From the NCBI RefSeq assembly GCF_002737755.1, contig NZ_PEGH01000017.1, positions 496,001 through 560,000 on the forward strand: a DNA stretch of 64,000 nt, read 5' to 3'. A program made the position numbers and the translations under genes. This document shows positions 5,386-35,248 of the stretch, piece by piece; the stretch's first letter is position 1; each line of letters begins with the position of its first letter. The DNA comes from Caulobacter sp. BP25. GTDB taxonomy: Bacteria > Pseudomonadota > Alphaproteobacteria > Caulobacterales > Caulobacteraceae. The notes beneath the pieces were generated by a model. The model saw only the letters and a list, made by a program, of their open reading frames with translations, ran no database searches and had not been told where the DNA came from.

Positions 5386-5718
5386 TCAGTCGACGACCGA
5401 GAACTTGCCCTTCTCGAAGACCCGCAGCACCTGGGTCAGCTCGTGGCCGCGCTTGAGGATCTGCCCGCCCTGGCCAAACACCGCCCAGGCGCCCTGCTTG
5501 CGGGCCAGGGCCGGATGCTTCTCGACACGATAGAGCGGCGCCTCGGCCGCGTGGCGGAAGATCGAGAACACGGCCCGGTCGGAAAGCCCCGCGATGCCGT
5601 AGTCGCGCCACTCGCCGGCGGCGACCATCCGGCCATAGAGGCGCATTAGCTGGTCAAGCTCGCGCCGCTCGAAAAAGACGACGCCGCCGACAGGGGTGGG
5701 CTGGGACTCCAGAGCCAT
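5386..5718 (-). CDS. DUF2794 family protein
   Basis: A 110-residue cytoplasmic protein matching the alphaproteobacterial DUF2794 family: VVFFERRELDQLMRLYGRMVAAGEWRDY-type N-terminus, then SIFRHAAEAPLYRVEK and FGQGGQILKRG. The family is conserved but has no assigned function. It converges with the small exported protein (10-base gap). Its start faces the small-RNA region. Confidence 0.85.
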   Translation of the reverse strand: MALESQPTPVGGVVFFERRELDQLMRLYGRMVAAGEWRDYGIAGLSDRAVFSIFRHAAEAPLYRVEKHPALARKQGAWAVFGQGGQILKRGHELTQVLRVFEKGKFSVVD

Positions 5719-5796
5719 GACGCGAATCTAGTCCGAAATCGGCCGATTGGAACAGCCGCGTGTCAGACGGGCCACAGCCGGCGAAAATGACACGGA

Positions 5797-6008
5797 ACGG
5801 TCATGGCGCGCCCCGAAAGGACCTTATTTCGGTCCTTCGCCCGCCCGTTTGCGGGTCGATAACATCAATGTCGGCTGATCGGAGACCCTGTGGTCCGGAT
5901 CCTGAACAGCCCCCCCCAGCCCCTAGATCGCGGGCCGGTCGGCCGACAAACTTGAAAGATCCCCTCCCCAACGAGCCCGCGCGGACCCCCCTCCCGCGCG
6001 GGCTTTTT
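5797..6008 (+). ncRNA. Putative small RNA, copy A of a tandem pair
   Basis: A block from 5797 (ACGGTCATG) to a strong terminator at 6008 that is clearly related to the block at 6055-6247. Shared features, in order, are ACGGTCATG, a CGAAAGGACCTT segment (here the 5' arm of a hairpin closing with GGTCCTTC), a GTTTG...GGGTTCGATAA-like segment, a tract of eight C residues followed by AGCCCC, and a GC-rich terminator. I found no plausible reading frame with codon bias. The homology block is about 212 bases; the true 5' end is not visible. The identity is inferred from duplication plus terminators; I do not recognise a named RNA. Confidence 0.6.
5975..6008 (+). terminator. Terminator of putative small RNA A
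   Basis: Perfect 10-bp stem GCCCGCGCGG (5975-5984) with CCGCGCGGGC (5994-6003), C-rich loop, then TTTTT. No protein gene on this strand ends nearby. Confidence 0.85.
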
Positions 6009-6054
6009 GCGTTTGGTCCGCGCTCTGTAGCAAGTCGGAGATCATCGCCGCACG

Positions 6055-6247
6055 ACGGTCATGCGCGGCCTCGAAAGGACCTTGGTTTAGTCCAGACCTC
6101 GCCGGTTTGGGGTTCGATAAAGACGGTGTCGACGAAGACGGACCGGGGCCCTGCCCAGCCCCCCCAGCCCCCCCGGTCCACCCCCCACTTCGGCGACGCT
6201 AAAGGAACCCGCGCGGCATTCCCCCTCCCGCCGCGCGGGTTTTTCTT
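6055..6247 (+). ncRNA. Putative small RNA, copy B of a tandem pair
   Basis: Second copy of the element at 5797-6008, starting with the same ACGGTCATG and the CGAAAGGACCTTG segment. It carries two tracts of seven C residues separated by AG (about 6158-6175) and ends in its own terminator. Divergence between the copies is concentrated in loops, while the 5' box, the C tracts and the terminator stem are kept; that pattern is expected of structured RNAs under selection. It lies between two minus-strand genes (DUF2794 and DUF1223), so it is an independent transcript if expressed. Confidence 0.6.
6206..6247 (+). terminator. Terminator of putative small RNA B
   Basis: Stem AACCCGCGCGGC (6206-6217) pairs with GCCGCGCGGGTT (6230-6241), followed by TTTCTTT. 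It is the same terminator type as copy A. Confidence 0.85.
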
Positions 6248-6268
6248 TGCTCGCGAAAAGCCAGGAAT

Positions 6269-7000
6269 TCAGTGCTCGACGGCCGGGGCCTGCAGCACGC
6301 CCAGGATGCGGCCACCCTTGGCGCCCTGCACCAGCACCACGCTGGCCAGATCCGGCTCAGCGGCGGGCGGCAGGCGATAGAGCCGGGGCTTGCCCGTCCA
6401 GGAGCCCAGACGCACCAGCTCGCGCACGACGTTGCGGTGGACCAGGGTCTGGCCCTTGTTATCGCCGCGCTTGACGGCGATGTCCTGTTCGCGCGGATCG
6501 TAGCGCACCAGCCAGACCTCGCCGCCGCCGCGCGGAGCCGGACCTGAGCCGACGGCGACCCGTGTCTTTCCGACGAACTCCATGTCCGGTGGGTTGGCCG
6601 ACGCCTTGGCGGCCGTCTTGATCAGGTCCTCGATCGCCTCGGCCTTGGCCCCCGAGGCCTGGACGCGTCCGGCGACCACCATCTGCGGCGTCGGCACGTC
6701 GCGCAGGGCGAACTTTATGGCGTAGGCGCGCTGGCGCTCGGCGAAGGCCGGCTTGGCGAAGGTGTCCTTCCAGCCGAGATAGTCCCAGTAGTCCACCGAA
6801 TAGGTCAGGGCCAAGACGCCGTCGCGCTGGGACAGCTCCGCGGCCAGCTGGTTGGCCTTGCCACAGGACGAGCAGCCCTGGGCCGTGAATAGCTCGACCA
6901 CCACGGGCGGCTTGCCCGCCCACGCGGCCGACCCCCAAGTCAGGGATGACGCAGCGCCGGACAGGGTCAGGCAGAACAGGGAGAGGGCGACCTTACGCAT
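6269..7000 (-). CDS. DUF1223 thioredoxin-fold exported protein
   Basis: A 243-residue exported protein: the signal peptide covers about residues 1-28 and is followed by VVELFTAQGCSSCGKANQ, a thioredoxin-like CxxC motif typical of DUF1223. Downstream WDYLGWKDTFAKPAF and QMVVAGR are also family signatures. A periplasmic thiol redox role is likely from fold and motif, but the substrate is unknown. The gene appears to be monocistronic, lying between the small-RNA pair and the acnA terminator. Confidence 0.88.
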   Translation of the reverse strand: MRKVALSLFCLTLSGAASSLTWGSAAWAGKPPVVVELFTAQGCSSCGKANQLAAELSQRDGVLALTYSVDYWDYLGWKDTFAKPAFAERQRAYAIKFALRDVPTPQMVVAGRVQASGAKAEAIEDLIKTAAKASANPPDMEFVGKTRVAVGSGPAPRGGGEVWLVRYDPREQDIAVKRGDNKGQTLVHRNVVRELVRLGSWTGKPRLYRLPPAAEPDLASVVLVQGAKGGRILGVLQAPAVEH

Positions 7001-34228: not shown

Positions 34229-35221
34229 CTACTCGACTGGCGAGGTGATCGTCGCGCCGCCCGCCTTCAGGCGGTCCAGCACGCCATTGGCGGGCAGCAG
34301 GAAACCCAAATCCACCACCGCCACGGTGACGCCCGGCCGCTTCAAGGCCTCGGTCATGGCGCCCGTCGTCAGGCCGACGCCCTTCTCCAGAAGTTCGACG
34401 CCGCCCGGGGCATGGAGCAGGCACCGCTGGGCGGCGCTGGCCCGATAGCGGGCGCGGACAGACGCAAGATCGCCCTCGGCCCAGTCGCGGCCGATCGTCG
34501 TAGAATGCGCGCCGTCATAGGCGATCTCGTCCAGCGCCACGCGCAGGCAATAGAGCTGGTCCTCGGCCGAAAGCTTCGAGGCAATCGTCGTCACCGCGCT
34601 CATCCGGTACTGGCCCACGGCCTTGACCTTCAGTTTGCGAGCCTTGGCCATGCGCTCGACCGTGCTGACCGGCTTGGCTTCGGAAAGCCCCGCCGCCTGG
34701 CGGAAATCCGACAGCAGCAGGAAGCCCGCCACGGCAGGTTTCCAGTTCTTGTACTCGCCCGCGCCCTTGCGGGCCTGGGTCCGCGCTTCCACGAACCGGG
34801 CCTTGAGGTCGGGCGGCAGCTCGTTCTCCAGCGACTTGCCCAGCGGCTGGCGCAAGCCGGCGCCGAACCGCAGGACAAAGCCGGCGACTTGGGTGACGCC
34901 GACCGAAGCTTCGGGCGGCACGAGCACGAGACTGGCCTTGTCCAACGCCTTCTCGAGGCGCGGGCTGGACCATTTCAGTTGGTGGGGCAGGGGCGGGGCC
35001 GAGCCCAGGATGTAGAGCCGAGCGCCGTCCTTCTCGACCAGCCAGACGGCGGGGCCCGGCGGCTTGGCCATGATCGTCAGCTCGGCGACCACCGCGCTCT
35101 CGTCCTGAGCCGGGGCCTGACCGAGATCGACCGTTGGCGGCGGGGCGGTCTGGGCCAGGGCCGAGGTCGACAAGAACAGGGAAAGGGCGAGGGCGGGCAG
35201 GACGGACTTGGACGCGGCCAT
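34229..35221 (-). CDS. TraB/GumN family protein, divergent active site
   Basis: A 330-residue exported protein with a signal peptide (MAASKSVLPALALSLFLS). It resembles the TraB/GumN (Tiki-like) family: WLVEKDGARLYILGSAPPLP, LKWSSPRLEKALDKASLVL and the C-terminal GVTVAVVDLGFLLPANGVLDRL. The family's GTxH motif is replaced by GSAP, so the metal-binding His is missing at that position. Peptidase activity is therefore doubtful. I chose MAASKS at 35221; the frame begins at 35242. Confidence 0.75.
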   Translation of the reverse strand: MAASKSVLPALALSLFLSTSALAQTAPPPTVDLGQAPAQDESAVVAELTIMAKPPGPAVWLVEKDGARLYILGSAPPLPHQLKWSSPRLEKALDKASLVLVPPEASVGVTQVAGFVLRFGAGLRQPLGKSLENELPPDLKARFVEARTQARKGAGEYKNWKPAVAGFLLLSDFRQAAGLSEAKPVSTVERMAKARKLKVKAVGQYRMSAVTTIASKLSAEDQLYCLRVALDEIAYDGAHSTTIGRDWAEGDLASVRARYRASAAQRCLLHAPGGVELLEKGVGLTTGAMTEALKRPGVTVAVVDLGFLLPANGVLDRLKAGGATITSPVE

Positions 35222-35248
35222 CAAAACTCCTTCAGCCCCCATTTCATC

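Follow-up and report, generated by a model that had tools for sequence, protein, structure and literature searches.

The window analysed here, a stretch of 64 kb from the genome of Caulobacter sp. BP25 (contig positions 496001-560000), carries two tandemly repeated blocks on the plus strand between two genes of the minus strand, a DUF2794 protein gene (5386..5718, minus strand; PF10984, E = 1.5e-40), which is the divergent neighbour kept with the RNA, and a DUF1223 gene (6269-7000, minus strand), past which acnA is located. Positions 5797-5873 and 6055-6131 align without gaps over 77 nt with 71% identity and an offset of 258 from start to start. This 77-nt block is followed in each copy by a C tract (5901-5923 and 6150-6172, respectively) and by the arms of a terminator (5969-6009 and 6206-6241), the order being identical. 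A sequence-only reading of this stretch had pointed out the C tracts and GC-rich terminators common to both blocks, which are indeed present, and had proposed a duplicated regulatory RNA gene. As both RNA blocks lie between minus-strand genes, their terminators serve no protein gene of the annotated type, and the DUF2794 and DUF1223 neighbours bear out that part of the reading as well. Judged from its sequence, each block looks like a complete small-RNA gene, in which conserved DNA of about 73 bp precedes a hairpin and a terminator.

The first copy is the previously known CC3664. Using cmscan with Rfam 15, RF01530 (CC3664) was the sole gathering-level match in the whole window, covering positions 5870..6004 of the plus strand with 100 bits at a gathering cutoff of 60, so that a named family exists where the sequence-only reading had recognised none. 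The main hairpin of copy 1 (5870..5947, plus strand) scores 64.2 bits with model R2, the sequence being itself within the R2 training set. It is accompanied by a C-rich loop core (5907..5922, plus strand), located as a match to the loop pattern, and by a terminator hairpin with T run (5969..6009, plus strand), an inverted repeat of 88% over 16 nt which also appears in the predicted fold. Among 61 genomes, RF01530 was found in 41 at E <= 1 and in 29 above the cutoff; one of 14 control genomes, that of Caulobacter vibrioides, gave a match. CC3664 is described in Rfam as a Caulobacter sRNA, and the RNA was reportedly detected by Landt et al. in 2008. A literature search, most subscription journals being outside its scope, returned no function for CC3664 and no paper in which the name appears. 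From chromosomal order, our guess is that its locus tag in strain NA1000 is CCNA_R0091 or R0092.

Copy 2 (6128..6245, plus strand; the 3' end is placed by the T run) looks like a new paralogue of CC3664 that was missed by the Rfam cutoff. With RF01530 it reaches 22.2 bits under permissive settings, which is below the cutoff of 60, and it shares the hairpin, the C-rich loop and the terminator with the family of which copy 1 is a member. Model R2 is based on alignment A2, i.e., 52 hand-chosen hairpins from which tandem second copies were left out. It nevertheless matches copy 2 at 6128-6197 with 30.6 bits and an E value of 2.5e-4 in the window, corresponding to 0.0163 under whole-genome scoring. 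Apart from both copies, R2 matched the reverse strand of copy 1 in the 64-kb window at E 0.86, and no further locus. The loop core of copy 2 (6156..6170, plus strand) again matches the loop pattern, while its terminator hairpin with T run (6206..6246, plus strand) is an inverted repeat of 100% over 12 nt. The loop pattern CAGCCCCCCN{0,2}AGCCC occurs at two places in the 64 kb, one per copy (5907-5922 and 6156-6170), with zero expected from 100 shuffles, and the loop CAGCCCCCC(N0-2)AGCCC, taken here as one mark of the extended CC3664 family, is present in both copies. Taken together, the Rfam match of 100 bits, a loop found twice with none expected and the recovery of copy 2 with a model to which no second copy contributed place the two repeated blocks, at the positions given for them earlier, beyond chance. 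They also support the proposed duplication of a regulatory RNA gene, copy 1 being the Rfam sRNA CC3664 and copy 2 a paralogue with loop, stem and terminator kept.

The RNA itself probably starts at GTCG (5870 and 6128), and the parts upstream of it are, from their sequence, most likely promoter DNA composed of a dyad-like box followed by CGATAA at -13..-8. In copy 1, the upstream block (5797..5869, plus strand), which is 71% identical to that of copy 2 and stands in fixed register, includes the conserved box GAAAGGACCTTATTTCGG as proposed activator site (5815..5832, plus strand) and a putative -10-like element CGATAA (5857..5862, plus strand), read from the sequence with its consensus at -13..-8. 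The repeat of this block in copy 2 (6055..6127, plus strand) contains the box GAAAGGACCTTGGTTTAG (6073..6090, plus strand), with one mismatch to the pattern, and a putative CGATAA element, also read from the sequence (6115..6120, plus strand), which lies as far from the box as its counterpart in copy 1. When folding was compared with shuffled sequences, z scores of -5.11 and -5.36 were obtained for the RNA parts of copies 1 and 2, versus -0.65 and +0.65 for their upstream parts. The box GAAANGACCTTNNTTYGG (up to four substitutions) is found 55 bases ahead of the Rfam start in all 30 loci returned for RF01530 (L001-L030, a non-random sample). With both ends located separately, the box-to-stem distance amounts to 54-56 in 91 of 124 units, 33 being without this spacing. 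Information in 76 main copies from Caulobacteraceae reaches 1.40 bits per position at -57..-38 compared with 0.11 at -110..-75; outside this family the box stands out far less, with 0.53 versus 0.28 bits per position in 20 main copies. Since a scan of 5600-6400 gave no sigma-70 consensus promoter, a transcription activator is likely, and it is predicted to act at the box. In the own genome, the box has six matches with at most two mismatches, the best two being the genes described here (zero and one mismatch) and the four others having two. Use of the box as a regulon motif was rejected, as these six matches compare with two in a reversed control and no regulon was apparent.

The sequence-only reading had assigned the upstream blocks differently, with two longer RNAs running from the ACGGTCATG boxes (5797 and 6055) and CGAAAGGACCTT serving as hairpin arm. 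Such RNAs would agree with the upstream blocks being repeated and conserved, and an AAGGACC...GGTCCTT pairing is possible in copy 1, but shuffled sequences fold just as well as the blocks, the Rfam model begins at 5870, and the distance between box and hairpin is fixed in the manner of a promoter element. Fixed register, conservation profile and poor folding thus make the 5' box and the 'hairpin arm' most likely promoter DNA; an RNA start at the ACGGTCATG box is not favoured, and we regard the longer RNAs as very improbable. The same block could, in principle, encode a short leader peptide, 19 codons long and opening with the ATG of copy 1 at 5803, and this frame is open in eight of eight close sequences examined, the window included. 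An ATG is, however, present at the 5803 position in 5 of 30 loci, and the box-internal ATG is found in 63 of 120 units, the others having AAG, ACG, AGG, etc. Moreover, variable columns are distributed 2/6/5 over the codon positions, with no excess at the third, and the frame of copy 2 stops after nine codons. Poor ATG conservation and the missing third-position excess leave a peptide at 5803-5862 with practically no credibility, and it was rejected as a candidate.

Within the RNA, the structure is supported by covariation in alignment A1, which holds 69 sequences out of 98 de-redundant units with starts set by the box. Its outer stem, which was not selected by folding energy, consists of ten pairs, eight of which display two-sided changes, and 96.4% of its cells are paired. 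None of 500 shuffles equalled the structure as a whole in any of five measures, and when the partners were shifted by one to three columns, pairing fell from 94.9% to 30.0-44.3%. The terminator covaries too, its ends in A1 having been picked by folding energy. In A2, 3' ends were picked for pairing, so the covariation count from that alignment is biased towards the stem. Invariant and near-invariant columns fall mostly in the loop and the stem foot; the loop CAGCCCCCC(C)AGCCCC is almost invariant, and the stem around it covaries.

Judging from these sequences, the CC3664 family appears to reach further back and to be more widespread than its catalogue entry implies. Of 200 genomes of the order (Caulobacterales), 148 are matched by model R1 at E <= 0.01, 41 of these 148 belonging to the family of the window, and 52 are without a match; the 20 misses listed come from families f3, f4 and f5, and f5 gave only three R1 matches. 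Covariation (0 of 500 shuffles) and conservation past this strain, which the sequence-only reading had put forward as checks, both speak for it. In 20 stretches from families f2, f3 and f4, hand-picked among the R1 matches and none of them in the R1 training set, stem and C-rich loop were recognised by eye in every case, two with slight loop variants, and 13 of the 20 contain DUF2794. A loop scan of genome contigs yielded at least 118 stretches, 80 of which were turned into loci (L056-L135), mostly from Caulobacter, Phenylobacterium, Brevundimonas, Asticcacaulis or other members of their family or order. DUF2794 is present in 30 of 30 RF01530 loci and in 62 of these 80. Before counting, L074 and L113 (loop letters without a hairpin), L111:5250 and L127:7475 (chance), L086, L094 and L130 (contigs as long as those of L027, L003 and L004, respectively) and L024 (same place as L049) were dropped. 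Of 28 loci with the RNA according to R1, R2 or the loop pattern, drawn from two sets (9 and 19 loci), RF01530 itself recognised one at gathering level.

In a sample of the class, R1 matched 8 of 289 genomes, four of them outside the order (L246 among these four being doubtful), and R2 matched 14 of 289, ten of them outside the order and three of those ten in the R2 training set. DUF2794 adjoins seven of the ten R2 matches outside the order, and five when only the seven matches absent from training are counted. In other genomes, 28 loci with DUF2794 were scanned with R2, which matched L274 and L275 at E < 0.01 and touched L276 at E 3.3; similar hairpins were seen by eye at L276, L278 (twice, in tandem) and L290, and nothing recognisable was found at most of the remaining loci of this set. 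The two tandem hairpins of L278, a locus from a different family, lie upstream of DUF2794 on the opposite strand, with the loop TAGCCCCCAAGCCC; they were identified by eye, R2 giving no match, and an independent tandem duplication is possible there. Upstream of DUF2794 in L281, a terminator-like hairpin with the loop AAATTTCTCCTCCCGAA follows a similar upstream box, and the position may now be occupied by another C/U-rich RNA. Further hairpin copies elsewhere in genomes, with no DUF2794 nearby, were noted in L037-L041, L071, L101, L109, L125 and L133, several of the copies away from DUF2794 being without an evident terminator; the one in L037 lies upstream of what we take to be a topA-like gene.

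A further copy on the same strand was found with R2 in 22 of the 30 Caulobacter loci (L001-L021 and L024). The single place represented by L024 and L049, in a Caulobacter-type genome, has three RNA copies in a row. A tree built from box and RNA never pairs a first copy with the second copy of its own locus; second copies are grouped separately and on long branches, with weak support for the deep nodes. From this grouping, the duplication seems to predate the split of these species, and the second copies apparently evolve faster. Neither Rfam 15 nor the literature searched, from which most subscription journals were excluded, yielded a record of the second gene, of the upstream box at its fixed distance, of the linkage to DUF2794 or of the spread across the order.

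Several known small RNAs resemble the pair in parts. The RNAs sX13 (RF02232) and alphar14 (RF02344) have C-rich loops, and both show a weak covariance-model similarity to the RNA of the window; membership was rejected, as sX13 scored 16.6 bits at best against a cutoff of 50 and alphar14 24.1 bits against 58.8. The alphaR8 RNAs SisA-D of C. crescentus are sibling sRNAs, likewise from Caulobacter, with a C/U-rich single-stranded core, given as UUUCCUCCCU (PMC12559287); this core has no match in the 64-kb window, and membership was dismissed. EcpR1 of Sinorhizobium follows a similar plan, its first stem-loop carrying a loop that does not change and its second being a terminator. Membership was rejected on the locus, which for EcpR1 lies between divK-pleD and rpmG (PMC4414408), whereas DUF2794 and DUF1223 are the neighbours here. 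GsrN of C. crescentus has a C-rich loop as found here and offers a possible working model for a CC3664-family RNA. GsrN is under sigma-T and its predicted homologues are typically located near general stress genes (PMC5869019), in contrast to DUF2794, DUF1223 and acnA at the present locus; none of eight neighbouring proteins scanned was a sigT-phyR gene, and GsrN membership was likewise rejected. By analogy, both copies may act in the manner of GsrN and other C-loop sRNAs, though they belong to none of those families.

On balance, we consider it fairly probable that the locus holds two tandem paralogous sRNA genes of the CC3664 family, each with its own control region and terminator, whose loops pair in trans with G-rich mRNA sites. 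An activator would bind the box about 55 bp before the RNA and switch on transcription; the RNA would start at GTCG (5870, 6128) and end at the terminator-like hairpin with its T run, and the covarying stem presents the near-invariant C-rich loop. This loop would then pair with G-rich sites of several mRNAs, probably near translation starts, and thereby alter their translation or stability. Pairing in trans is most likely by analogy with GsrN, the C-rich loop of which pairs with the G-rich katG leader (PMC5869019). Copy 2 would have arisen by duplication in the Caulobacter lineage; as its loop is kept and its stem changes faster, its role is probably to raise the dose or, with overlapping targets, to respond to another signal. 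Loop complements in the own genome numbered 86 versus 74 for a reversed control, and 317 versus 316 in a second count, so close to the controls that no clear target emerges. One near-match to the loop complement is repeated several times, always within one repeated element. A seed-plus-ATG search over five genomes gave 41 hits in the own genome versus 15 with the pattern reversed, but reversal is not a fair control for codons. In the window, GGGGGCTGAAGGAGTTTTGATG at 35219-35240 (minus strand), at the start of the gene 34229-35221 (minus strand), is a candidate loop-pairing site beside the ribosome-binding site. Among nine relatives examined, GGGGGCTGAAGGAG was exact in two, near in one and absent in six, and with exact conservation in just two of nine the site is a lead only.

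The C-rich loop could instead act as a decoy that titrates an RNA-binding protein. Rho, for example, prefers C-rich RNA. A nearly invariant loop on a variable stem would suit such a role, and so would an own genome without an outstanding long complement of the loop, but short pairing seeds would likewise escape a search for long complements, and the C-rich loop of GsrN is known to pair with G-rich mRNA (PMC5869019). Titration of a protein in place of mRNA pairing is thus regarded as unlikely.

Beyond the pairing of the loop with mRNAs, a wider and more tentative proposal, to which we give somewhat less than an even chance, views CC3664 as the Caulobacter branch of an ancient alphaproteobacterial sRNA inherited with the DUF2794 locus and duplicated in tandem more than once (in Caulobacter and, by eye, in L278). 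As box and bipartite AGCCCCC loop have stayed almost identical through changes in stems, terminator and copy number, the loop would serve one constant partner, be it a protein or an unvarying set of mRNAs. In Caulobacter, if copy 1 alone were knocked out, copy 2 could mask the effect. A loop that hardly changes over such distances, together with an upstream box in fixed position, suggests a core role for these RNAs.
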